61,403 bases of DNA from Adlercreutzia sp. ZJ473 (GTDB lineage Bacteria > Actinomycetota > Coriobacteriia > Coriobacteriales > Eggerthellaceae): contig NZ_JAAVTO010000009.1 in NCBI RefSeq assembly GCF_013185065.1, positions 1 through 61,403 of the forward strand, read 5' to 3'. The notes below the pieces were generated by a model. The model ran no database searches. It saw nothing but the letters and a program-made list of their open reading frames with translations, and was not told the origin of the DNA. Each line of letters begins with the position of its first letter. Within the stretch, counting starts at the first letter, position 1. Shown here in pieces: positions 24,075-52,006 of this stretch. Position numbers and translations under genes: made by a program.

Positions 24075-24779
24075 ATGGGATCATGCACCACTGACGCGGG
24101 CGCCCGCGAGGAGCTGCGCGCGCTGATGGAGAGCCGCGCGCACGTCTACGACCTGCTCTCACGCTGCTTCGAGACCGAGGTGACGCCCGAGTTCGCCGAG
24201 AGCCTCGCGCACGCGTTCGCCTTCGAGACTGACGATGAGGCGCTCGCGGAGAGCTTCGCGCAGATGCGCGCGAAGCTCGACGGCATTGACGCGGACGGCA
24301 TCGAGCGCCTCGCGGTGGTGTTTGACCGCGTGTTCTTCGGCATGGGCCCGAGGGCGGCCCAGAAGGCGTTTCCGTACGAGTCGGTGTACACCTCCGACCG
24401 CGGCATCATGATGCAGGACGCCTACTCCGAGGCGACGAGGCTCTACCGCACGATGCGCCTGCGCAAGAACGAGCGCTTCACCGAGCCCGAGGACCACCTG
24501 GCTGTCGAGCTCGCCTTCATGGCGCTCTGCGCGCGCCAGGCGTCGGAGGCACTCGCAACGGGCGACGAGGACGCGGTCGCAGCGAGCGTGCGCGGCCAGG
24601 CGGCCTTCTTGGAGGGCCATCTTCTGAACTGGCTGCCGCGCTTCTGTGCTGACCTGCGGAAAGGGGCTGAGGAGGGCTTCTATCTCCACCTGGCGGACTT
24701 TCTGCTGCGCTTCGCCGAGAGTGACCGCGCGTTCCTGCGCGACCTGGTGGGGCAAGAGCAAGAGCGAGGGCAGGCGTAG
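24075..24779 (+). CDS. TorD/DmsD family molybdoenzyme chaperone
   Basis: 234 residues, all-helical. It opens with a helix preceding YDLLSRCFE, contains FDRVFFGMGP and the family-typical PYESVYTS followed by EPEDHLAVELAFM, and ends with a helical bundle (LPRFCADL). Proteins of this family bind the Tat signal of a partner molybdoenzyme and help insert the cofactor before export. The partner here is the Tat-bearing enzyme at 19572. Ribosome site GATAGGAGAAG precedes the ATG. Confidence 0.9.
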   Translation: MGSCTTDAGAREELRALMESRAHVYDLLSRCFETEVTPEFAESLAHAFAFETDDEALAESFAQMRAKLDGIDADGIERLAVVFDRVFFGMGPRAAQKAFPYESVYTSDRGIMMQDAYSEATRLYRTMRLRKNERFTEPEDHLAVELAFMALCARQASEALATGDEDAVAASVRGQAAFLEGHLLNWLPRFCADLRKGAEEGFYLHLADFLLRFAESDRAFLRDLVGQEQERGQA

Positions 24780-40844: not shown

Positions 40845-42011
40845 CTACTTATGATAGATCGCCTCAAAAAGAGCGAGAGCCGCCAGCGCCATTGCAGCGT
40901 TGAAGAAAAACATGGCTGAAGGCCCCCATGTCTGCAGAACCGCTCCACCAGCTATGGGGCCTAAGCCCATCCCCAAATCAGGTCCGATAAAGAACGTGTT
41001 CGCCGAGCGCCCGAGCATGGCTTCAGGCACATTGCGCACTGACTCCGCTTGGATGGAAGCATAGGCAGAGCCTTGCCCTATCCCCATGCAGATGCCGCCG
41101 ATCACCACACCGGCAACTGAGTCAAACGCGGCCAGCAACAGCATCCCCAACGCCGCCACTGCTATCATAGGCAGAGTCACGCACCGCACCCCCCAAGCAT
41201 CGCTCGCACGTCCCGCCAGAGGACGCGCTCCCAACGTTGCCATCGCGTAGCACGCAAAGTACAGCGAGGCTGCTTGGACGCCACGCAACTCACTGGCAAG
41301 CAGAATGAAAGACGACGTGGTTCCCTGCGCCACCATCAACATACCCGCAACCAGCGCTAAAGGAGCAGCGGGCAGGTAGAAGTACGTGCGAAGCGAGAAG
41401 CGTTGCCGCGCGCACCCGGGCATACTCCCACGTATGCCATCGCCTTCTCCTCCTGGAACCCGAAACTGCAGCGCCAACACCAGCGCACCTGCCAAAAGGG
41501 CTCCTGAAGCCGCAAACGAAACCGCGTACCCCCAGGTTGCCTTCACTTCGGAGCCCACTGCAGGCCCCACCGCTACGGCAGCAGTGTAAGCAAGTCCCAT
41601 CCAGCCCACCGCAGCGCCCACACGAGCATGCGGCACGATTAGCGGCACCAACGAGACAACGATCGTCGACTTGAACGCGAACGCAAAGCCCTGCAACGCC
41701 AAACATATGCCCAAGGCTGGTACCGACCGAAACAACGCGCATCCAAACGCACCCATGCAAAACAGCGCGCTGGATGCCACCAGCAGAACCTTCTTGCTTG
41801 CATAATCTGATACAACCCCGCTTATCGGACGAATGACCAACGCAGACGTAGCAAGAAGACCTGCAAGGAAGCCCGCCACAGGCACGGAAGCACCGAGCGA
41901 TACCGCGTAACCAGAAACAAGCGGACGCGTAAGAAAGGCTCCCATCTGCAACATTGCCTCAACAAGAAACAGCTGTACAAATCGACTATTCCACATCTTC
42001 TCGCCACTCAT
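40845..42011 (-). CDS. MFS transporter of module C
   Basis: 388 residues, twelve membrane helices in two halves with a loop near 190. Motif A-like SDYASKKVLLVAS lies after helix 2. It follows the module C ferredoxin gene across a terminator-like hairpin and likely carries the module's substrate or product. Base composition looks less GC-rich than the genes before 40.8 kb. Substrate unknown. Confidence 0.87.
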   Translation of the reverse strand: MSGEKMWNSRFVQLFLVEAMLQMGAFLTRPLVSGYAVSLGASVPVAGFLAGLLATSALVIRPISGVVSDYASKKVLLVASSALFCMGAFGCALFRSVPALGICLALQGFAFAFKSTIVVSLVPLIVPHARVGAAVGWMGLAYTAAVAVGPAVGSEVKATWGYAVSFAASGALLAGALVLALQFRVPGGEGDGIRGSMPGCARQRFSLRTYFYLPAAPLALVAGMLMVAQGTTSSFILLASELRGVQAASLYFACYAMATLGARPLAGRASDAWGVRCVTLPMIAVAALGMLLLAAFDSVAGVVIGGICMGIGQGSAYASIQAESVRNVPEAMLGRSANTFFIGPDLGMGLGPIAGGAVLQTWGPSAMFFFNAAMALAALALFEAIYHK

Positions 42012-42124: not shown

Positions 42125-42460
42125 TTAGGGCAGGAAGATCGAACACTGCTCTCCTCTTTCTGCCATCTTATGAGCCAGCTCCTCGAGCGTGCCGTACTCG
42201 ATAGCATTCGCTAGGCAATGCAGCACGCACGACGGCACGCCTCCTGCCTCCACGCGGCTCTCACACATAGTGCAGTAAGTCGTCGGCACAGGAACATACT
42301 TGCCTTCCCACTTGCCGTCCATCTTACGCCACGGACCCATTTCCAAAAGCTTAATACCCCACTGGCCCTGAGGCAAACCAAGCTCGTTGCGACACGCAAT
42401 CTCACAGGTATGGCAGCCCGTGCAGTACTCGTTATCAATCATCAATCCATAGGTGGCCAT
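42125..42460 (-). CDS. Small two-cluster Fe-S subunit of module C
   Basis: 111 residues from the ATG at 42460 (GGGGG upstream). Two cysteine groups, CTGCHTCEIAC and CTMC...CVLHC, match the first and last clusters of DmsB/NrfC proteins, with the two middle clusters missing. It is probably the electron-transfer partner of the molybdoenzyme that ends 26 bp upstream. The same short form recurs in module D. Confidence 0.9.
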   Translation of the reverse strand: MATYGLMIDNEYCTGCHTCEIACRNELGLPQGQWGIKLLEMGPWRKMDGKWEGKYVPVPTTYCTMCESRVEAGGVPSCVLHCLANAIEYGTLEELAHKMAERGEQCSIFLP

Positions 42461-42486
42461 CGTATTACCCCCTTTCTTTTCCATGT

Positions 42487-44793
42487 TTAGTTCTCAGAGC
42501 GATAGATCTTGCACGGCAGCGCGCCATAGTGGGATCCCAATCCCAACTTGCCAATCTCCTTCCACGGCATGAGCGAGTTGATTGAGGACTTGCGTACGCT
42601 GAACAGTTCGGTGTCCTTGTCCTCGGGATACCACCAGCCGTGGTCGCAGCCGATGACGCCCTCCTTCACGATGGGAGTTACGTCAGCCATCATCTTGCAC
42701 TTACCCCATGGATTCTCGATGGTCACCCAATCGCCCTGGCTGATGCCGTATTTCTCGGCGGTCACTGGATTGATCTCCACCGTCGCAGCCTTGCGAATCT
42801 CACGCAGGGACTTGATCATGCGATGCTCAGTGTGGAACGAGGTGGGACGACGCGCTCCAGTTACGAAGTCGAGCGGGTATTCCTCTATCCACTCGGGACG
42901 CGAGCGCTTCGAGAAGCGAGGCTCCTCGTAGTAGGGCAGGGGATCCTCACCGAGATGCTGCTTCACAGTACTCCACAGCTCCACGCGACCAGTAGGAGAC
43001 TTAAAGCCCGACTTGCCATCAGCACGCAGCAGACCCTTCTCGTACTGGTAGTAGGGAATCTCGTAGCGGCCGTACACCCACTCGCGGAGCTTCTCGTAGG
43101 TCATCGGCTCGCCCGTTTCAGGATCTGCCGTATAGGGAATGTTCTGGATCTTATTGTCCAGGTAACCGCGCTCGTCAGCCCACTTCTCAGCATCCTCGGT
43201 GCGATCCGGATTGATGCGGTGGTCGAGATCGAGCATGATCTGCAGATCGCTCTTGCACTCGCCCAAAGGCTCAAGCACCTGCGTGAGCGCATGGAACTGG
43301 CCAGGCTGATTGCAGCCGTGGAAGGTGACGATGCCCTCATGCTCAAGCGACGTGGAAACCGGCAACACCACGTCAGCAAGCGCCTGGATGGTGGGGTTCA
43401 TAAAGATGTCGGTGGCACAAATAAACTCCTTGTGGCGGCACGCCTCCATCCACTGCATCGGCTGCTGCGTAATGCAGGAGGAGATGAAGTTCGAGCTTTG
43501 GATGAACAGAAACTCAATCGGATAGGGGATGTTGGTGCGCAGCGTATCCAACGTGCAATCAGGCTGTGTAGTATTAATGATGAAGTCCATCGCGGGATAC
43601 TGGTCATGGCCGGCAATCGGAATGGGGTTGGTATCCTCCTCGTTCACCTGCATGCCAACACCCTTGCGACCTGTGGAACCGCCGTTAAGCATCGTCTGGC
43701 CGAGCTTAATGCCACCAGGGTTATCCAAATTGCCGCAGATGGCGAATATGCCCCAAATCGCATGGCAAATCTGCAGCGTGTTGGGATTCTGATCGGTTTT
43801 CAGGCCCACTGACGCCGTGCAGGGCTTCTGCGCAAGCAGGCGGGCAGCCTTGTAGATATCCTCAACCGGAACTTCGCAGATCTCAGCAGCCATCTCAGGT
43901 GTCATGGTGCGACAACGCTCAGCATACTGGTCAAATCCATACGTCCACTTCTCGACAAACTCGTGATCATAGAGATCTTCCTCGATGATGACAGTATTCA
44001 ACGCCATGGCGAGCGCTGCGTCAGTGCCGGGACGAATCTGGAAATGGATCTCAGCATGGCGCGCAAGCCAGTTGGCACGCGGGTCGACAACGATGATCTT
44101 CATGCCGCGCTTCATCATGTCGACCGTGCTGTGCCCAAACAAGCCGTCGGGATTCGACCACAGGGTATCACGACCCCATATCAACATATACTTTGGCAAC
44201 TCGTAGCGAGGATCGTCAAAGCGGTCTTTGAAGCCGAATGCGCCGTCGTACTCAACGTAAGCGCAGCCGAGCAACCAGTCCATCGCGGTCTGACGCGGGA
44301 TAACGCACGACCAACCACCGTTTGCATGGATGGCGGTGCGGCTGTGGAACACCTGGTTGCACGTCTGGAATTGATACGCGCTCGCCTCACGACCAGTGCC
44401 TGTCCACACAGAAACCGTATCGGGGCCGTACTTCTCAGTCAGCTCGTGGTACTTCTCGACGATAATATCGTATGCCTCGTCCCATGTGCAGCGCTCCCAT
44501 TTGTCGGGCTGACCGCGGAACTGGCGCTCGCGCTTCATGGGGTACAGCAGACGATCCTCGTGGTAAATGTACTCGGGCATCGTGAGGCAGCGAATGCAAA
44601 GGCGGCCATTTGTGATGGGCTGGTCAGGGTCGCCCTCAACTTTGATCAGCTTGCCGTCCTTGACGAACGCCTTCAGACCGCAACCGACGCCGTGGCATCC
44701 CGGAGGCGACCATTGAGCCGTGCGGTACACCAACGTACCGTCCTCAAGCTCGGTGACGCGCGGGGTTTCGGAAACTCGCGTCAATTCACTCAT
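42487..44793 (-). CDS. Molybdopterin (bis-MGD) oxidoreductase, catalytic subunit of module C
   Basis: 768 residues from the ATG at 44793 (GAGGAGC upstream). There is no signal peptide. The N-terminal cysteines are Cys33, 38, 66 and 69: the third Cys of the classical motif is absent and the distal position is CIRC. LLYPMKRE, WDEAYD and the C-terminal dinucleotide-binding domain follow. Cys163 (GWSCVIPR) is the candidate Mo ligand. It is a clear relative of the module D enzyme. Both resemble the cytoplasmic molybdoenzyme group that includes pyrogallol transhydroxylase and some catechol dehydroxylases; the substrate is not assignable. Confidence 0.93.
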   Translation of the reverse strand: MSELTRVSETPRVTELEDGTLVYRTAQWSPPGCHGVGCGLKAFVKDGKLIKVEGDPDQPITNGRLCIRCLTMPEYIYHEDRLLYPMKRERQFRGQPDKWERCTWDEAYDIIVEKYHELTEKYGPDTVSVWTGTGREASAYQFQTCNQVFHSRTAIHANGGWSCVIPRQTAMDWLLGCAYVEYDGAFGFKDRFDDPRYELPKYMLIWGRDTLWSNPDGLFGHSTVDMMKRGMKIIVVDPRANWLARHAEIHFQIRPGTDAALAMALNTVIIEEDLYDHEFVEKWTYGFDQYAERCRTMTPEMAAEICEVPVEDIYKAARLLAQKPCTASVGLKTDQNPNTLQICHAIWGIFAICGNLDNPGGIKLGQTMLNGGSTGRKGVGMQVNEEDTNPIPIAGHDQYPAMDFIINTTQPDCTLDTLRTNIPYPIEFLFIQSSNFISSCITQQPMQWMEACRHKEFICATDIFMNPTIQALADVVLPVSTSLEHEGIVTFHGCNQPGQFHALTQVLEPLGECKSDLQIMLDLDHRINPDRTEDAEKWADERGYLDNKIQNIPYTADPETGEPMTYEKLREWVYGRYEIPYYQYEKGLLRADGKSGFKSPTGRVELWSTVKQHLGEDPLPYYEEPRFSKRSRPEWIEEYPLDFVTGARRPTSFHTEHRMIKSLREIRKAATVEINPVTAEKYGISQGDWVTIENPWGKCKMMADVTPIVKEGVIGCDHGWWYPEDKDTELFSVRKSSINSLMPWKEIGKLGLGSHYGALPCKIYRSEN

Positions 44794-44835
44794 CCTGCTT
44801 GCTCCTCTCTCCTTCGTTTCTCGTTGGCTTACCCA

Positions 44836-44850
44836 ACAAAGCCCATTTTT
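44836..44850 (-). promoter_or_regulatory. 15-bp element shared by modules C and D, copy C
   Basis: Read on the minus strand, AAAAATGGGCTTTGT lies 43-57 bp upstream of the module C molybdoenzyme start. The identical 15 bp occurs upstream of the module D operon at 52007, with related flanks. Confidence 0.6.
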
Positions 44851-44898
44851 CACGTCCGGCGCGCCCACATCATCTGCTCACTGGTAGGAATTAGGCGT

Positions 44899-44916
44899 AT
44901 TGCCTGTTCAGGCAAT
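44899..44916. promoter_or_regulatory. Perfect 18-bp palindrome upstream of module C
   Basis: ATTGCCTGTTCAGGCAAT has 8-bp arms and a 2-base centre, 106-123 bp upstream of the molybdoenzyme start. The size fits a LuxR/GerE-type operator. Confidence 0.5.
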
Positions 44917-45022
44917 GTAAAATACCACTTGCGAGATCCGCCCGTAAGACCACAGGTATTAGTTCGGAGGCATAGGGGCGCACGTCTCTGCGGGTCCTTC
45001 GGCGATCTTTCACGCGCAGTCC

Positions 45023-45220
45023 TTACGCGTCCGGCTTGCCACGCGACTCGATATGCTCACCGCCGCATGCGGCGCACGTCTTCGGACTCTCACCCGGCTC
45101 CACCACATGCCCACAGTCGCGACACGCAAGAACGAGAAAAGAGATGCCGAGGTCGGGATCCTTGCATCTGCCGCAATGGTTACACACATAGCAGCGTTCC
45201 ACCTTCGAATATCCTTTCAT
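45023..45220 (-). CDS. Zinc-ribbon protein, 65 residues
   Basis: Seven or more cysteines in CYVCNHCGRC, CRDCGH and CAACGG, enough for two metal sites; the rest is short linkers. The last gene of the minus-strand set that continues from module D through the trigger-factor-like gene. Rubredoxin-like zinc ribbons of this size can be electron carriers, metal donors or chaperone partners. CGAAGG-type ribosome site; no exact family recognised. Confidence 0.8.
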   Translation of the reverse strand: MKGYSKVERCYVCNHCGRCKDPDLGISFLVLACRDCGHVVEPGESPKTCAACGGEHIESRGKPDA

Positions 45221-45270
45221 CTAAAACAACAGAAGGGGCGGTAAATGCTCGCCCCCTCTCATCACCGCTC

Positions 45271-45498
45271 TCAACGTACCGCCGCACTACCGCCTGCATC
45301 GACCGCTTCGCCCACAGCAGCCACACCGTTTGCGCTAACCGCGCTCGATGATTGTCCAGGCGGTAGCGGCACACACCAGCCGCAGCCTGGGCAGACCCGC
45401 GCGCGCAACGGCACCACTGCATCGCAATGCGGGCAACGCAAGTCGCGTGATGACGTGTCGTTGGTGCAGCTACCGCAATTCCTGCAGGGATAGCACAT
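45271..45498 (-). CDS. Zinc-ribbon protein, 75 residues
   Basis: From the ATG at 45498, five bases past the trigger-factor-like stop, with GAGAGGG upstream lying inside that gene's end. Cysteine groups CYPCRNCGSC, CPHC and CPGCGWC form a double zinc ribbon; the last 35 residues are an Ala/Gly/Val tail. The near-overlap with the chaperone gene implies translational coupling and a shared role. Confidence 0.8.
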   Translation of the reverse strand: MCYPCRNCGSCTNDTSSRDLRCPHCDAVVPLRARVCPGCGWCVPLPPGQSSSAVSANGVAAVGEAVDAGGSAAVR

Positions 45499-45503
45499 GG
45501 GGG

Positions 45504-46802
45504 CTACCCTCTCACCGTCGCCGTATCGGCCAGCCAATTGAGGGCGCGCATGCGCTTGGCCGATGACTCCACCAGCGCAAAGCGCCCCGTCCGACGAAGA
45601 GCTTCAGGGTCGTACGAGCCCGCACCAAACGCTTGCTCGCATGAAAAACGCAAGTCCTCCTCGGTCAACCTCATGTCGCGACCGTCGAACAGCGCCTCCA
45701 GGGCAAAACCCTGGCGCAAGTTCTCACCCGACTTGATAAGCATCTGGACGCTCAGCTCCTCCTCGTTCATATGCTCGGCCTCAAGGTAGTCGTCGATCGT
45801 CTGCCCCCTCTCGGCCAGCTCACGCTCGAGCTTGGCTCTCTGGCCTGCGCCTGAGGCCTTATAAAACTCGTCGGGAATCTTGCCCACCAGGCGCTTTTCC
45901 AACTCAATGTTAGCCAGACGCGCTAACGTGTCCCGGTTCAAAATGGTCATCTCAGCCTCCATGCCTGCCCGCACGCCAGCATAGAGCTCGTCCACGCTCG
46001 CCGCCTTCTCCACATTGGCATTCACCCAGGCGTCGGTCAGCTCTGGCACCGTCTTTGTCTGCTGCGAGAGCACCGTCACCGTTGCCGAGAACTCATCCAT
46101 GTCGTCATCCGATATTCCACGCGCTCGCGGCACGCGGTAGTCAATGACCTTCGTCTCGCCTACGTCCATTCCCACAACACCATCCATGAACTCGTCGGGC
46201 ATGAAACCCGGCTCCAGTTCAAAGTACATCTTAGAACCCGTCATATGTGCGACGGGCCTACCCTCGCATATCGTCATGATGTCCACGGCAATGCAGTCCC
46301 CCAATCGCACGGGATGCGCCGGAGCCTCCTCATATGCGGCATGCGTCTCCAAAAGCCCCGCGATGCGAGAAGCAACCATGTCATCAGTAACGTGCTCCTC
46401 ATAAGGGTCGACCTCCACCGGCTCGTACGAAGTGAGCATCAGCATGGGACGCTCCACCACGGAGAGCTTGAACGCAAAGGCATCGTCAGCGCGGGGGTAG
46501 TCTAGCACGCTTATCTGCGGCGTGAGCGCCGGCGTGACGTCTAGCTTTCGCACGGCGGCGCTCACAATCTGGTTCACCACGAAGTCGCGACGCAGCTCGC
46601 GATAGTTCTCCTGCCCCATGCGCGCTTCAGCCGCTATGTCCACCTCATTCCATGGAGCATCGAGCGCCAATCCGTGATGTGGCGCCACCACCTCATAGAA
46701 CTCTGCCAAACACGCGTGCACGGAGCCCGCAGCGACCGCCAAGGAGATCTCTATGGCGCCGGTCTCGAAGCTGTCAGTTCTCGTCAGTTCTGTAAAGTCC
46801 AT
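45504..46802 (-). CDS. Trigger-factor-like chaperone with altered N-terminal domain
   Basis: 432 residues with trigger factor architecture: an N-terminal domain, a PPIase-like middle domain (LGDCIAVDIMTICEGR, then FELEPGFMPDEFMDGVVGMD), and the C-terminal chaperone arms (KTVPELTDAWVN, LVGKIPDEFY, RGQTIDDYL). The ribosome-docking GFRKGK signature is missing; HHGLALDAPW occupies that region. It is unlikely to be the housekeeping chaperone. Reductive dehalogenase loci use a comparable dedicated trigger-factor relative (PceT), so a maturation chaperone for a module C or D molybdoenzyme is a reasonable inference. Confidence 0.85.
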   Translation of the reverse strand: MDFTELTRTDSFETGAIEISLAVAAGSVHACLAEFYEVVAPHHGLALDAPWNEVDIAAEARMGQENYRELRRDFVVNQIVSAAVRKLDVTPALTPQISVLDYPRADDAFAFKLSVVERPMLMLTSYEPVEVDPYEEHVTDDMVASRIAGLLETHAAYEEAPAHPVRLGDCIAVDIMTICEGRPVAHMTGSKMYFELEPGFMPDEFMDGVVGMDVGETKVIDYRVPRARGISDDDMDEFSATVTVLSQQTKTVPELTDAWVNANVEKAASVDELYAGVRAGMEAEMTILNRDTLARLANIELEKRLVGKIPDEFYKASGAGQRAKLERELAERGQTIDDYLEAEHMNEEELSVQMLIKSGENLRQGFALEALFDGRDMRLTEEDLRFSCEQAFGAGSYDPEALRRTGRFALVESSAKRMRALNWLADTATVRG

Positions 46803-46903
46803 CTGTCCGTCCTCGCGTCGACGTGCCGCGCCCGCAACGGCGCGTCTTCATGACCAACAGACCGACACGATGCCGGTCTGTTGCAAACAGCCTTTCTCGA
46901 TTG

Positions 46904-47155
46904 CTAGTTGCCCGCAGGCGGCTTCGGAGCGCCGGGGGCTGGAGCCGGTGCCGGCGCAGGGGCACCCGGCACCTTCGGAGCGCTTGGAGTACCCGGAGCA
47001 CCCGGAACCCCAGTACCGCCCGGCACGCCGACGATGGGCGGGGCGCTCGGAAGCTTGGCACCGCACTTCTCGCACGTCTCGTTGATGAAGTCGTTCTGCG
47101 CACCACACTCGGGGCAGGTCTTCTCCACGCTAATCGCAGCTGGTCTGAAGCACAT
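46904..47155 (-). CDS. Zinc-ribbon protein with Pro/Gly/Ala tail, 83 residues
   Basis: From the ATG at 47155 (AAGGAAG upstream). A single zinc ribbon, CPECGAQ then CEKCGAK, is followed by 50 residues of Pro/Gly/Ala repeats (PGAPAPAPAPAP). It lies 101 bp before the trigger-factor-like gene and 170 bp after the transporter gene, in the same direction. A 10-bp TTCGTTGTTG tandem (47176-47206) precedes its ribosome site. The function is unknown; the position suggests the same accessory set. Confidence 0.75.
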   Translation of the reverse strand: MCFRPAAISVEKTCPECGAQNDFINETCEKCGAKLPSAPPIVGVPGGTGVPGAPGTPSAPKVPGAPAPAPAPAPGAPKPPAGN

Positions 47156-47175
47156 AGTTCGTTCTTCCTTTCTTC

Positions 47176-47206
47176 GTTGTTGTTCGTTGTTGTTCGTTGC
47201 TGTTCG
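47176..47206. repeat. Short TTCGTTGTTG tandem repeat
   Basis: Three near-identical 10-bp units just upstream of the 83-residue zinc-ribbon gene. May influence its expression or simply be slippage-prone sequence. Confidence 0.7.
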
Positions 47207-47325
47207 GCGATTCTTCGCCCAAGCAGCAACCCTTTCCCTCAATGCCCCGTTCGCACGCAGGGCTGCATTGGCGGCCGACGTGTCAGCCGCCAAAGTGGAG
47301 GGACAGCCCGTTATGCGGAGCAAGG

Positions 47326-48828
47326 CTACTCGGCTGCCTTCTTTGCCGCCTCGCGCTCAGCCAGATCAGCGGCGATCTGCTCCATCTTATTCGAGTCAAG
47401 ACGATATCCGAAGAAGAACCCGACGAAGGAAATCGCAAAGCAAACCATAGGAATGAGGCAGATGATGTTGATCATGCCTTGGGTCAGCTCTGGTGAGGGA
47501 TCCATGCCGGACACAAAGCCGATGGCAGCCAGGCCGAAGCCCGTCAGCAGACCGGCTACGGCGTTGCCGATCTTCGGGCACCACTGGAACGTGGACATGA
47601 TGAATGCCTTGGCAGTCTTGCCATCACGCCACTCGCCGTAGGCAACGGCATTGGACTGCATGCCCATCATGGTGCCGTTCATGAAGTTCATGCCGAAATA
47701 CGCACCGCAAATGCACGCGATGAACGCCATCTCGCTGGACGCGCCGACGAAATAGCATGCCATCATGGAAACGCAGCCGATAGCTATGCCTATCAGATAG
47801 GTGCTGCGGATGCCGAGCTTGCGTGCTATGGGCTCGGACACGAACGTTGCTACCAAGCCGGTGATGTTGCAGGCGGTCAGCATGACGGCAGCCATGGCCA
47901 CATCGCCAAACGCATAGGTGAATACATACATCGCCATGCTTTGAATGGTCATTTGCGCGATGAATCGAATGATCTCGGCGAACAGACCCACCAGCGCCGG
48001 TAGATTCGTCAGCCAGTACTTCAGCATCTCGGACAGGCTGACTTTCTCACCCGGGTCGATCGGCGGCACCTTCTCACCGCGCTTCTTGGCGGCGGCGCGC
48101 TCCTCGCACAGCTTCTGAGTGGGATCCATGCCGTCAATGCGCTTGAACATCACGATGAACATGATGATCATGATGATGCCGAAGATAAGCGCCAGAATGG
48201 TGAAGCCCGCAGGACCGGCATTCTGAGCGTTTTCACCTGCAGGAACCGCATACACCAATCCGTTGATGGTCAGGATGAAGGGCAGGGAGACGGCAGCGAA
48301 CAGCACCTTCACTAGCATATTGCCCTGGGCTTTGCGCTGCGAGAGTAGCGTGCGGTCAGCCTCGGTACGGCTAATGACCGGAACTATGGACGTCGCGGCG
48401 ATCATGAAGAAGCTCGAGAAGAAGCCGCCCACGATCTGGAAGAAGATCATCCACGCTGTCTTAGCGCCCGCATCAAGAAACACCGGATCCACGAACGTCA
48501 TCATCAGGCAGACGAAGGTGATGGGGGGTGCCACCAGAAGCCAGCTACGATACTGGCCGTGCTTCATCCAGAAACGCTCGATGATAATGGCAGCGATAAT
48601 GACGAAGAACCACTCGCCCACGCCAGTGACAGCCTTGACCGTGCCCATGATGGCAGGCTCAAGGCCGCATATCTCCGTCAGGAAGTACGACCAATAGTTG
48701 CTGTTCATCTGGTTAAACGCGGTCCAGGTCAACATGCCGAGGCCGTAGATCAGACCTAACGCCTGCGAGACGTTGTTCTGGATTGCGCCTGCAAGCTTAT
48801 CACCCGCAGCTTCCATCTTCTCACTCAT
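47326..48828 (-). CDS. MFS transporter of the GPH (glycoside/cation symporter) type, module D
   Basis: 500 residues, twelve helices, with features of the GPH branch (long central loop about 260-300 containing DPGEKVSLSEMLKYWLTN; NAVAYGEWRDGKTAKAF near helix 10). Members move sugars, glycosides or conjugated compounds with cations. The start at 48828 has AAAAGGGGAG upstream. It follows the module D ferredoxin gene across a strong hairpin, so it probably imports the module's substrate. Confidence 0.85.
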   Translation of the reverse strand: MSEKMEAAGDKLAGAIQNNVSQALGLIYGLGMLTWTAFNQMNSNYWSYFLTEICGLEPAIMGTVKAVTGVGEWFFVIIAAIIIERFWMKHGQYRSWLLVAPPITFVCLMMTFVDPVFLDAGAKTAWMIFFQIVGGFFSSFFMIAATSIVPVISRTEADRTLLSQRKAQGNMLVKVLFAAVSLPFILTINGLVYAVPAGENAQNAGPAGFTILALIFGIIMIIMFIVMFKRIDGMDPTQKLCEERAAAKKRGEKVPPIDPGEKVSLSEMLKYWLTNLPALVGLFAEIIRFIAQMTIQSMAMYVFTYAFGDVAMAAVMLTACNITGLVATFVSEPIARKLGIRSTYLIGIAIGCVSMMACYFVGASSEMAFIACICGAYFGMNFMNGTMMGMQSNAVAYGEWRDGKTAKAFIMSTFQWCPKIGNAVAGLLTGFGLAAIGFVSGMDPSPELTQGMINIICLIPMVCFAISFVGFFFGYRLDSNKMEQIAADLAEREAAKKAAE

Positions 48829-48858
48829 TGAACTCCCCTTTTCCTCTCGCTTATCAAA

Positions 48859-48886
48859 CCCGGCGCCTTGAGTGCAAGGCGCCGGG
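48859..48886. terminator. Hairpin between the module D ferredoxin and transporter genes
   Basis: CCCGGCGCCTTG and CAAGGCGCCGGG form a perfect 12-bp stem with a 4-base loop. It matches the hairpin position in modules A and C. Confidence 0.8.
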
Positions 48887-48895
48887 CAGTGCACC

Positions 48896-49228
48896 TTATT
48901 CGACCGTGAAAAGAACCATGCGCGGCTTGGTAGCCTTCTTCGCAAGCTCCTCTACGGGACCATACTCCATCACCAACGACTGGCAGTGATGCACGCACGT
49001 GGGAACCTTGCCTGCAGCCACGCGATCAGCACACAGGTCGCAGCGCTGGGTAGGCATGGGTACGAAGTCCCACTCCCACTTGCCCTCGCCCATCTTCCAT
49101 GGCCCGATCTCGGTGAGCTTGATGCCGAACTCTCCTTCGCCGAGACCTTTTTCCACCTTGCACGCCACCTCGCAAGCATGGCATCCAGTGCAGAACTCGT
49201 AATCAATCAGAAGACCTTGTTGTGTCAT
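48896..49228 (-). CDS. Small two-cluster Fe-S subunit of module D
   Basis: 110 residues: CTGCHACEVAC and CDLC...CVHHC, the same reduced two-cluster form as in module C, with shared IKLTEIGPWKMGEGKWEW- and VPMPT-like segments. It should transfer electrons to the molybdoenzyme ending 35 bp upstream. AAGGA ribosome site. No signal peptide. Confidence 0.92.
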   Translation of the reverse strand: MTQQGLLIDYEFCTGCHACEVACKVEKGLGEGEFGIKLTEIGPWKMGEGKWEWDFVPMPTQRCDLCADRVAAGKVPTCVHHCQSLVMEYGPVEELAKKATKPRMVLFTVE

Positions 49229-49263
49229 GCGTCTGAACTCCTTTCCTTATAATTCACCCGAGC

Positions 49264-51600
49264 CTACTGGTTGTCTTTGCCGGCGTAGATGCGATCAAAG
49301 TACTCCTCGTAGATGCGCTCGAACTCGGCACCGTAACCCTCGGGAGCCGGATACACCTTGGCAAGCTGCGTCTTGTATGACGAGCCGTAGCCGCTCGGAC
49401 CGAAGTCGCCCTGGACAGTGCAACAGTTGATGTTGGAATCCCACAGACCGAACAGCGACGGCTCCTCCTTCGCACGCTCGGGGAACCACCAGCCATGCTC
49501 GGCGCTGATAACGCCTTCCAGCATGGTGTCAGTCACATGCGCGACCTCGATGGCTTTGCCATGGGAGTTCTCAATGACTGCCCAATCCCCTTCCTTGATG
49601 CCCGCAGCCGCAGCGTCCTTCGGATTGATGGCGAACATCGGCCACTTATGGAACTCGCGCATAGTGCGCAGCTGGCGATGCTCAGAGTGGAAGTACTGCC
49701 AGCAGCGGCGGCCGGTAGTCATTACCAGCGGATACTCGGCGAACAGCTCCGGAGTGGATACGGGGCTCTCCGGCGGCTCCTTGAAGTAGGGCAGCGGATC
49801 CATGCCGACGTTGTTGTACATGTTGCAGAAGAACTCGACGCGCCCGGACAGCGTGTTGAAACCCGGGGTGCCGTCGAAACGCAGCTTACCGGTCTTGTAC
49901 TTGTAGTAAGTGAACTCGGGATACACGATGACCTTCTCACGCAGCTCGCTGAAGGTGATCTGCACGGGCACGGTGGCCATGTTGTTCGTGCAGAACTCGA
50001 GCATCTCGGGCACATCGTCCCAGTAGAACAGGTCGGGGTTCATCTTCTTGCCCAACTCAAGCATCATCTGCTCATCGCCCACGGCATCGCCCGTCTGGGT
50101 GACCTTGGTGATAGCGCGCAGCGGGGTGTACCAGCCGCGCACGCCATTACGCTCGCAGCCCATGGCCATGGGGATGAACAGGTCGCCGATGGCCATAGCC
50201 GTAGGGGTCATGAACAGGTCGCATACCACAACATGATCCATCTCCTTGAAGGCGTTGTAGATGCGACGAGCCTGGCCGGCCATGTTGGTGAATGCGGTAG
50301 TGGAGCACATGAACAGCATCTTGACCGGATAGGGCTTGCCCGTCTCGCAAGCGTCGAGAATGGCCTCGGGGATGGCATGGCCGCCTTTGCCCTTGGCGTT
50401 CATGAGGCCCCAGTTGCCGTCATCTCCCAGACGGCCCTCGCGCACATTCGGCAGACCCTTGGCGACGTTCTCGCGGATGTCGGATTGCACGTAGCCGAAG
50501 TTGATGCCCACGAAGCCGCCGGGGTTGTCGATGTTGCCGGTCATGGCCTGAAGGCACACCACGGCATGAGCGGTACCGTTAGCTTCCTTGTTCTGATCGA
50601 AGGCCACGCCCCACTGCAGCGCGGTGACGCCCACGGTGCCAATAAGACGGGCCGCCTTGTAGATGTCCTCAGGAGCGCACCAGCAGATCTCGGCGGCGCG
50701 CTCAGGCGTCCAGTCAGCCACGCGCTGCTTGTACTCATCGAAGCCGTAGCACCAGCAGTCCACGAACTCCTTGTCGTAGAGCTCTTCCTCTACCATCACG
50801 TGCCCGATGGCCAAGGCGAGCGCAGCATCGGTGCCAGGGCGCACCTGAATGTAGTGCTCGGCATGCGCAGCCAGCCAAGTCACTTGAGGATCGACTACCA
50901 TCAGCTTGGAACCGCGACGCATGCAGTCGATGATCCAATGGCCGTAGAAGCCGTCAGCGTTGGCGCGAAGCGGGTTGTTTCCCCAGATGAGGAACATGTC
51001 GGGACGACGGTACTCGGGATGGTCGAAACGCGCCTCGTTAAGCTGGCCGCAGTCGGCGATGAAAGTGTCGCCCAGAACGGCGTTCATGCCCTGCATGCGC
51101 GGAGTATAGCAGCAGTTGCCAGCGAGCATTCCGCAGTTGTCGTTGGGAGTGCCGAACGCGCCCTGGCCTAGTACGTTCGACTGCCAGGTGGCATTACGGC
51201 CTGTGCCGGCACCGGTGCAGATGGACTTCGCGCCATACTTCTCAGTGGTGTCCTTCACCATCTCGGCGCACAGCTCATACGCCTCGTCCATGGTGATGCG
51301 CTCCCACTTGTCAAGGCCGCGGTCCTCACGGGCTCGCTTCATGGGATGGGTGATGCGGTCGGGGTGATACACGGCCTCGACCATGGCCAAGCAGCGCATG
51401 CACAGGCGGCCGTCGGTGACCGGCGAGTTCGGATCACCCTCAACTTTAACCAGCTTACCGTCCTTGTCCGTGTAGAACAGGATGCTGCAGCCCTGGTGGC
51501 AGCCGGGAGCAGACCACTGCGTGGAGCGCGTGACCGTCAGATCCCCCTCTTGATACTGCCAATCCTTCTTGTAGACCTCAGGATTAAAGCAATCTCTCAT
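49264..51600 (-). CDS. Molybdopterin (bis-MGD) oxidoreductase, catalytic subunit of module D
   Basis: 778 residues from the ATG at 51600 (GGAAGGAG upstream). The N-terminal cysteines are Cys34, 38, 67 and 70, again lacking the classical third Cys and ending in CMRC. PMKRAREDRG, MDEAYE and a C-terminal dinucleotide-binding domain follow. The Mo-ligand region reads GNCCYTPR (Cys163/164). No signal peptide. It shares many blocks with the module C enzyme and is its paralogue, with its own transporter and accessory genes, so a different substrate is likely. Confidence 0.93.
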   Translation of the reverse strand: MRDCFNPEVYKKDWQYQEGDLTVTRSTQWSAPGCHQGCSILFYTDKDGKLVKVEGDPNSPVTDGRLCMRCLAMVEAVYHPDRITHPMKRAREDRGLDKWERITMDEAYELCAEMVKDTTEKYGAKSICTGAGTGRNATWQSNVLGQGAFGTPNDNCGMLAGNCCYTPRMQGMNAVLGDTFIADCGQLNEARFDHPEYRRPDMFLIWGNNPLRANADGFYGHWIIDCMRRGSKLMVVDPQVTWLAAHAEHYIQVRPGTDAALALAIGHVMVEEELYDKEFVDCWCYGFDEYKQRVADWTPERAAEICWCAPEDIYKAARLIGTVGVTALQWGVAFDQNKEANGTAHAVVCLQAMTGNIDNPGGFVGINFGYVQSDIRENVAKGLPNVREGRLGDDGNWGLMNAKGKGGHAIPEAILDACETGKPYPVKMLFMCSTTAFTNMAGQARRIYNAFKEMDHVVVCDLFMTPTAMAIGDLFIPMAMGCERNGVRGWYTPLRAITKVTQTGDAVGDEQMMLELGKKMNPDLFYWDDVPEMLEFCTNNMATVPVQITFSELREKVIVYPEFTYYKYKTGKLRFDGTPGFNTLSGRVEFFCNMYNNVGMDPLPYFKEPPESPVSTPELFAEYPLVMTTGRRCWQYFHSEHRQLRTMREFHKWPMFAINPKDAAAAGIKEGDWAVIENSHGKAIEVAHVTDTMLEGVISAEHGWWFPERAKEEPSLFGLWDSNINCCTVQGDFGPSGYGSSYKTQLAKVYPAPEGYGAEFERIYEEYFDRIYAGKDNQ

Positions 51601-51638
51601 GCAAACTCCTTCCAAGAACCTAATCTCTCTACCTTGCG

Positions 51639-51875
51639 TTACTTGACGCGCTCGCCTTGCTTCTGGGCGCGAGCCCAGACACCCAGCATGATGAGGTTGT
51701 CATTGGAGACAACGTTATCCTCGCCCACCTTGTGGTACGTCATGCGCGTCTGGAGCTCCGCCGGATCACGAAACTCATGGCGAATGTACAGATCGCCATC
51801 CATCAAGTAGGCCTCCTTCGTTTCCATCGAGTCGAGCGTCGGCGCGTACTTGTCGAGCAACTCCTGCTCTGCCAT
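51639..51875 (-). CDS. Hypothetical 78-residue protein leading the module D operon
   Basis: Excellent ribosome site (AGGAGGAGG). The sequence has an acidic N-terminal helix (EQELLDKYAPTLDSMETKEA) and a central strand-rich segment (LYIRHEFRDPAELQTRMTYH). No cysteines, no membrane helix. It precedes the molybdoenzyme start by 38 bp and shares its promoter, so it probably belongs to the enzyme's assembly or regulation. No family recognised. Confidence 0.7.
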   Translation of the reverse strand: MAEQELLDKYAPTLDSMETKEAYLMDGDLYIRHEFRDPAELQTRMTYHKVGEDNVVSNDNLIMLGVWARAQKQGERVK

Positions 51876-52006
51876 GCAAACCTCCTCCTTCTTTGTTCTG
51901 GCCTTGCGAACCCGCCCTCACGGGCGCTTCACCTCATTCATGTCACGGCTGAAAGACCTCGTCTTGAAAACAGAGGCGTTGGAGCCTTTACAACCGATTG
52001 ACACCG

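Follow-up and report, generated by a model that had tools for sequence, protein, structure and literature searches.

Trigger-factor relative and zinc-ribbon proteins encoded between two cytoplasmic molybdoenzymes of Adlercreutzia sp. ZJ473: a candidate dedicated assembly set

Results

Organization of the locus

The window analysed here is a stretch of 61,403 nucleotides from Adlercreutzia sp. ZJ473 (contig NZ_JAAVTO010000009.1, assembly GCF_013185065.1). Within it, four minus-strand genes encoding an 83-residue zinc ribbon, a trigger-factor relative and two further ribbons are sandwiched between two molybdoenzymes, D and E, that lack a twin-arginine translocation (Tat) motif. The initial annotation had placed the four genes on one strand after the transporter of module D, with 5 bp between the chaperone gene and the next ribbon. 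All coordinates were reproduced, including the 5 bp between the trigger-factor stop (45504) and the start of the second ribbon gene (45498). The four genes are as follows.

46904-47155, minus strand: MCFRP ribbon (ZnR1), 83 residues, with an MCFRP start, a four-cysteine ribbon of the form CPxCG...CxxCG and a low-complexity tail rich in Gly, Ala and Pro
45504-46802, minus strand: trigger-factor relative without the GFRKGK docking signature, 432 residues, assigned from Pfam, alignment and a structural model
45271-45498, minus strand: second ribbon (ZnR2), 75 residues, eight cysteines, MCYPCRNCGSC start, assigned from cysteine conservation
45023-45220, minus strand: third ribbon (ZnR3), 65 residues, eight cysteines, CYVCNHCGRC start, assigned from cysteine conservation

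The ribbon proteins match Pfam ribbon models only below the cut-offs. The ribbon cysteines are invariant among relatives, indicating that these are real genes and not chance open reading frames. A promoter scan of positions 44500-52000 found no sigma-70-like site, and a terminator scan found none on the minus strand; the lack of predicted internal sites is compatible with a single transcript but proves nothing. None of the four proteins matches the TorD-like domain PF02613, and modules D and E encode no such protein. The only TorD found in the window (24075-24776) lies 20.7 kb from the trigger factor in module B, which is of the exported type, in agreement with the earlier observation that module B differs from this locus in having a TorD-like chaperone. 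Plasmid carriage was rejected, the one match being weak (an annotated tig on a Tsukamurella plasmid), as was a function in defence, for which PADLOC gave no match.

A trigger-factor relative lacking the docking signature

In Pfam, the 432-residue protein scores above the cut-off for Trigger_N (5.5e-7; 30.4 bits against 22.2) and for Trigger_C (5.9e-5; 23.6 bits against 22.7), and FKBP_C reaches only 0.24. The match to TIGR00115, the housekeeping trigger factor equivalog, reaches 4.5e-34 but its 118 bits fall under the cut-off of 180.2. An AlphaFold2 model (predicted local distance difference test score, pLDDT, 88.3; predicted template modelling score, pTM, 0.61) contains the N-terminal, peptidyl-prolyl isomerase and C-terminal chaperone domains. 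Its best structural matches are full-length trigger factors, with a Foldseek value of 6.9e-21 for 1w26_A; in the VIA-align table, rows beyond the first five cover mainly residues 161-253. The alignment with 1w26_A (Z 17.5) takes in 389 residues over model positions 4-432 at a root mean square deviation of 10.2. In the model, all three domains match those of 1w26_A but are arranged differently.

As the initial annotation had stated, the protein lacks the GFRKGK signature, and it does not carry the more general ribosome-docking pattern GFRxGxxP in its N-domain loop. Residues 43-50, which in the model join the first two long helices, read HGLALDAP, where the alignment places GFRKGR in the clp-linked copy of the same genome. 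The ZJ473 genome (2.63 Mb, 119 contigs, 99.87% complete) yields six Trigger_C matches: the clp-linked copy with GFRKGR (C35), a copy with GFRKGK (C92) and its short neighbour, two signature-less copies (C30 and C31), and the window copy. The possibility raised earlier, that the window copy is the only trigger factor of its genome and serves as the housekeeping one, is therefore rejected, as two signature-bearing copies exist besides it, one of them beside clpP/clpX. Housekeeping Tig shares the three-domain fold, but unlike the window copy it has the docking signature, clpP/clpX neighbours and a TIGR00115 score above the cut-off.

The signature-less copy C30 adjoins YgiQ and ribosomal-protein genes. 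A second conserved signature-less trigger factor (L008:6452-7795 and relatives) is found in this context in many genomes of the family and may be a translation-linked paralogue.

Distribution of the window clade

A window-clade profile was searched against 138 family genomes; clade members score at least 410 bits and the next best match 285 bits. The clade has 16 members in 10 of the 138 genomes. An MCFRP ribbon and a molybdoenzyme are present in the surroundings of 14 of the 16. The remaining two (L232 and L233) are on contigs of 4.1 and 3.4 kb where neither is visible, and L232 (G099) retains ZnR2 beside the trigger factor. The clade trigger factor is thus not scattered through many genomes far from molybdoenzymes, a pattern that the initial annotation had named as one that would speak against an association.

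The clade comprises two subclades. In the first, the order is enzyme D, its 4Fe-4S subunit, (transporter), MCFRP ribbon, trigger factor, (ZnR2), ZnR3 and enzyme E, with ZnR3 between the trigger factor and E. This order is kept in all eight loci that display both sides and occurs in the ZJ473 genome, Gordonibacter (G103, G106 and two metagenome-assembled genomes, MAGs), Raoultibacter timonensis (G116) and Adlercreutzia (G097, which is A. faecimuris, and G098). The trigger factor and ZnR3 are both present in A. faecimuris, as shown by profile searches in all frames. Compared with the window proteins, the enzymes of the first subclade are 80-95% identical (where long enough), the MCFRP ribbon 72-80% and the trigger factor 48-64%. 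The second subclade has a D relative (59-60%), the MCFRP ribbon and the trigger factor, and is without ZnR3. When loci were selected on enzyme D instead, nine had D at 80% or more (two MAGs contributing two loci each); the trigger factor is seen in five, and in the other four the contig ends before its place. Some sets used below consist of MCFRP-chosen loci or MCFRP-rich genomes; the clade census, the D-selected set and genome G103 are free of that selection.

The initial annotation had treated the four genes as one set. The set is present at this locus, but it is not one fixed unit. ZnR2 and ZnR3 vary between loci, and the MCFRP ribbon is far wider in distribution than the trigger factor, so that an inseparable four-gene unit is rejected.

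Association with molybdoenzymes in a closed genome

In the closed Gordonibacter genome G103, distances to PF00384 matches were compared with a null of 5000 circular shifts. G103 (3.95 Mb) is molybdoenzyme-rich, with 85 PF00384 matches at E 1e-3, as is G115, with at least 87 at 1e-8. One small fragment in the frame of another match was dropped from the G103 matches to leave 84, of which a few are pieces of one gene. MCFRP-model matches were counted below 1e-5, and 18 of the 20 begin at model position 1. Of these 20, 19 have a PF00384 match no farther than 5 kb away, against 4.1 expected, and 4 of the 5000 shifts reach this number. At the same distance, a molybdoenzyme is found near all six non-housekeeping Trigger_C matches (1.2 expected; 3 of 5000 shifts) and an MCFRP match near five of the six (0.28 expected); these six include one truncated protein, one scoring like the ribosomal-operon type and one without MCFRP within 270 kb. 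The housekeeping trigger factor is 72 kb from the nearest molybdoenzyme.

Of 21 TorD matches, 20 are within 5 kb of a molybdoenzyme. TorD and MCFRP never share a molybdoenzyme match in G103: within 6 kb, 23 of the 84 have MCFRP alone, 20 have TorD alone, none has both and 41 have neither. The exclusion has a probability of 5.8e-4 if independence is assumed, an assumption that neighbouring genes violate.

The ribbon proteins

The first ribbon represents a family of its own, recognizable by the invariant MCFRP start, the four-cysteine ribbon and the low-complexity Gly-Ala-Pro tail. Of 396 genomes sampled from the class, 56 contain it at E 1e-9 (39 from the same family, 16 from other families of the order and one from outside the order). 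A single genome gives up to 38 matches at E 0.01, a threshold that also admits weak ones. The fetched loci contain 78 different MCFRP genes; a molybdoenzyme lies no more than 6 kb from 67 of them, and 64 of the 67 share its strand. No TorD occurs within 6 kb of any of the 78 in these loci, many of which were chosen for MCFRP. A pattern search of the fetched loci found no twin-arginine motif in any of the 73 molybdoenzymes with MCFRP within 6 kb, one of which also has TorD within that distance. The MCFRP ribbon accompanies molybdoenzymes far more widely, and trigger-factor relatives stand beside only some such enzymes.

The MCFRP model has a mean pLDDT of 56.5, with about 78 in the ribbon core and below 50 in the tail, and a search of the PDB with the profile returned only generic ribbons and fingers. 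ZnR3 is specific to the first subclade. ZnR2 directly follows the trigger factor only in ZJ473, A. faecimuris (L130/L138) and G099 (L232), and ZnR2 relatives are found near other molybdoenzymes.

Trigger-factor tree and matching of lineages

A tree of 100 trigger factors was built by a quick method with no bootstrap, clade support being given by the Shimodaira-Hasegawa-like approximate likelihood-ratio test (SH-aLRT). It separates a signature-bearing clade (23 rows, support 99), a ribosomal-operon type (39 rows, 100) and the window clade (13 rows, 98); one clp-linked row (L179) falls outside the signature pattern. The window clade contains only copies near a molybdoenzyme and MCFRP. Overlapping duplicate loci (L118/L136, L130/L138, L176/L139, L195/L164, L198/L156 and L230/L169) do not double the counts of 16, 14 and 13. 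A molybdoenzyme lies within 8 kb of 2 of the 23 signature-bearing or clp-linked copies (clp-linked 0/14, second copies 2/9), 10 of the 39 in the ribosomal-operon clade and 26 of the 38 other signature-less copies; the genomes behind these counts were partly chosen as MCFRP-rich, and one gene is counted twice (L108/L225 overlap).

Five trigger-factor clades each stand beside one enzyme lineage. The window subclade is beside D (80-100%) and E, and the second subclade beside the D relative of 59-60% identity. The L058/L107 clade is beside its own enzyme (99-100%), the L075/L171/L191/L220 clade beside another lineage (88-100%), and L056/L108/L193 beside a third (81-100% in 3 of the 4 rows that were checked), with the adjacent L177 beside a different one. 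MCFRP ribbons and neighbouring enzymes also match. Their distances correlate over 61 pairs (r 0.47; 0 of 2000 permutations), and for 38 of the 61, against 3.0 expected, the nearest MCFRP falls within the three nearest enzymes.

Enzymes D and E

The genes flanking the four are listed below.

51639-51875, minus strand: 78-residue conserved protein immediately upstream of D, kept in relatives
49264-51615, minus strand: molybdoenzyme D, Tat-less catalytic subunit of the bis(molybdopterin guanine dinucleotide) (bis-MGD) family, from domain matches
48896-49228, minus strand: small 4Fe-4S subunit of D, from domain matches
47326-48828, minus strand: GPH-type transporter of module D, its start placed at an ATG within a longer open reading frame
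42487-44868, minus strand: molybdoenzyme E, bis-MGD family, Tat-less, from domain matches
42125-42484, minus strand: small 4Fe-4S subunit of E, from domain matches
40845-42011, minus strand: major facilitator superfamily (MFS) transporter of module E, with a 58% identical neighbour in L136

The module D transporter is a relative of GPH-type symporters (Pfam MFS_2; TIGR00792 below its cut-off). The 78-residue protein is 82-90% identical in five relatives and 60% in L159, and has no Pfam match. Enzyme E is 78-100% identical across the window subclade where length allows comparison.

The closest solved relative of enzyme D is acetylene hydratase (2e7z, 3.1e-74), as is also reported for Gordonibacter-type catechol dehydroxylases in PMC7028382. 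These enzymes are described, in PMC7028382 and PMC11887054, as having a Tat-less bis-MGD subunit, a small 4Fe-4S partner and an MFS neighbour. D and E show the same architecture, each with a Tat-less bis-MGD catalytic subunit, a small 4Fe-4S partner and a neighbouring transporter. They are Gordonibacter-type in architecture, the likeness being drawn from the described organization, and catechol dehydroxylation by them is putative.

D relatives in Chloroflexi/Dehalococcoidia (nine loci), Oscillospiraceae (two) and a Burkholderiales MAG (one) have neither MCFRP nor trigger factor in the fetched stretches, some of which are short. The set is thus something added within this order, not a trait that comes with the enzyme fold.

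Discussion

The results suggest, with a probability of about 0.58, that the four genes form a set dedicated to assembling the flanking cytoplasmic bis-MGD molybdoenzymes after translation. Given the architecture of D and E, the accessory genes known for enzymes of the exported type and the precedent of PceT, an assembly set is the most economical account. The trigger-factor relative, having lost the docking signature, would act off the ribosome and may hold the large apo catalytic subunit open and soluble during insertion of iron-sulfur clusters and cofactor. The likeliest client would be D, whose module the trigger factor follows in both subclades. The MCFRP ribbon may be an enzyme-specific adaptor or gate, with the four-cysteine ribbon and the invariant N-terminal CFRP binding the enzyme and the unstructured Gly-Ala-Pro tail serving as a tether. 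ZnR2 and ZnR3, with two four-cysteine sites each, could be the corresponding partners of the second enzyme or metal carriers. In this way the set would occupy the place that TorD-like chaperones hold for exported enzymes. The genes present, their conserved order and co-occurrence, the matching of lineages, the lost docking signature and the three-domain fold are observations; binding of a client, detachment from the ribosome and every part played in inserting cofactor or metal are inferred from them.

Alternatively, the ribbons could be rubredoxin-like electron carriers, with iron in the four-cysteine sites, that feed the reductases through the 4Fe-4S subunit, leaving the trigger factor as a separate folding aid. 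One MCFRP per cytoplasmic enzyme would fit a private electron donor, and ZnR3 has weak rubredoxin-like/rubrerythrin matches (RUBY_RBDX, 1.8e-3; NF033497, 4.6e-6). Both of these are below the cut-off, however, and do not place ZnR3 in that family. The best Pfam matches of MCFRP, also below the cut-off, are structural zinc ribbons, only about 9-10 residues separate its cysteine pairs, and there is no conserved aromatic core. To our knowledge, the invariant MCFRP start and the Gly-Ala-Pro tail are not rubredoxin features either. Electron carriage by the ribbons is therefore considered unlikely.

A role as dedicated chaperone would also be mistaken if signature-less trigger factors are general-purpose paralogues carried on mobile molybdoenzyme cassettes, serving no enzyme in particular. 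Signature-less trigger factors are frequent in the family and also occur far from molybdoenzymes: of 85, this holds for 20 in the ribosomal/YgiQ context and 23 others. Copy C31 persists without its enzyme, and in the window-type loci the trigger factor diverges faster than D and E (48-64% against 80-95% identity). Against this explanation, the window clade retains its place and partners across genera, separate trigger-factor clades keep to separate enzyme lineages, and molybdoenzymes are near 26 of 38 signature-less copies outside the ribosomal-operon clade but near none of 14 clp-linked and 2 of 9 signature-bearing second copies. The passenger explanation is given a low likelihood, similar to that of electron carriage.

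Zinc ribbons often bind nucleic acid. That the ribbons are transcriptional or RNA-binding regulators of inducible enzyme genes, with the trigger factor alone as maturation factor, is nevertheless improbable: characterized enzyme relatives are indeed substrate-induced according to PMC11887054, but no DNA-binding domain besides the ribbon was matched, the position of MCFRP on the strand of the nearest molybdoenzyme gene (64 of 67) is that expected of a co-transcribed partner, and the matching of MCFRP and enzyme protein lineages is not predicted by a promoter-binding role.

Several observations weigh against a dedicated assembly set. Nearly half of the G103 molybdoenzyme matches (41 of 84) have neither MCFRP nor TorD within 6 kb, indicating that a local partner is not general, and 11 of the 78 MCFRP genes have no molybdoenzyme within 6 kb in the fetched stretch, some stretches being short. 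In G115, one of three non-housekeeping trigger-factor matches is within 8 kb of a molybdoenzyme among the matches listed, and in ZJ473 only the window copy among the non-housekeeping trigger factors is near one. The C31 trigger factor of ZJ473 is intact while its enzyme is only a fragment (L007:6277-6465) and no MCFRP is there; the same locus in G002 (L058) and G159 (L107) has a whole 756-residue enzyme and an MCFRP ribbon. For the Gordonibacter enzymes that share 46% identity with D (L142, L144 and L149), neither MCFRP nor a trigger factor is seen in 22 kb. The ribosomal-operon clade (39 rows) is near molybdoenzymes at about background (10 of 39, against 29% of random places in G103), so that the notion that all signature-less trigger factors belong to molybdoenzymes is rejected. 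Finally, the Gordonibacter-type enzymes (+)-Eldh1 and (+)-Eldh2 were active when expressed in E. lenta (PMC11887054). If the dedicated assembly set is accepted, this counter-evidence implies that it works in trans for several enzymes or that only some enzymes need it.

A precedent is PceT, a dedicated chaperone of the trigger-factor type that was found 1:1 with soluble PceA, according to PMC8905343. As with PceT/RdhT, the trigger-factor relative described here is encoded beside, and stays with, one cytoplasmically assembled redox metalloenzyme and exists besides a housekeeping copy. The likeness is drawn from descriptions and gene context. Unlike in the PceT/RdhT systems, the neighbours here are molybdopterin oxidoreductases and not a reductive dehalogenase catalytic subunit. 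According to PMC8905343, PceT attaches to its client at the Tat signal, whereas the candidate clients here are Tat-less bis-MGD enzymes accompanied by ribbon proteins, so that a binding mode other than that of PceT would be needed.

TorD, DmsD and NarJ (PF02613) are likewise gene-for-gene companions of molybdoenzymes, but have another fold. Accessory genes, including a TorD-like one, are indispensable for active Eggerthella-type Dadh (PMC11887054). The Eggerthella-type DadhD-I accessory proteins resemble the set in being cluster-specific, required for active enzyme and from the same bacterial family, but act on membrane-anchored enzymes with a Tat signal and count a TorD-like protein among their number. 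The main text of PMC11887054 mentions neither "trigger factor" nor "zinc". No accessory set for the soluble Gordonibacter-type enzymes was found described in the literature examined, and a search mostly covering sources outside subscription journals found no published link of trigger factor or zinc ribbon to catechol dehydroxylases. A trigger-factor relative and ribbons beside cytoplasmic molybdoenzymes of the polyphenol-transforming kind in gut bacteria suggest an undescribed way of enzyme building.

Outside Coriobacteriia, catechol dehydroxylases are difficult to produce in active form. The conserved partners (MCFRP, the trigger-factor relative and the two ribbons) provide named genes for deletion or co-expression, and genetic tools are available for Gordonibacter urolithinfaciens (PMC11887054). 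If the dedicated assembly set is real, it would add to reductive dehalogenases a second example of a trigger factor that has become a private chaperone, and it would raise the question of why cytoplasmic molybdoenzymes use a ribbon protein where exported ones use TorD. A broader and more tentative proposal, which we hold to be somewhat less probable than its negation, is that Eggerthellales have another route, one without TorD, for the maturation of cytoplasmic bis-MGD enzymes. In it, a private MCFRP ribbon would serve its particular enzyme as maturase or as gate for the cofactor, with interchangeable trigger-factor paralogues, free of the ribosome, as holdase. The route may have expanded to dozens of copies per genome along with the polyphenol-transforming enzymes, and its absence could be one reason such enzymes fail in foreign hosts.

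Further ribbon and trigger-factor-like proteins

Other small proteins of these kinds were encountered. Three near-identical MCFRP genes of the same type occur in ZJ473 (L100:8029, L101:8312 and L103:8280), with no molybdoenzyme in the stretch and two of them at contig ends. More small cysteine-rich ribbon families stand beside molybdoenzymes, including MPNCRTCSPWC..., GGFRPPP...KC.ECNTFN... and MTFSCTDCSRCGKC... (positions L123:8596, L128:8537, L135:8990; L056:7598, L108:4893; L102:2058). Short trigger-factor-like proteins of about 180-280 residues are also found (L010:6504, on C92 of ZJ473, L202, L207, L214, L217, L221, L222, L226; L117, L182, L186), some beside a second copy that bears GFRKGK and others, in Gordonibacter, between MCFRP and a molybdoenzyme.

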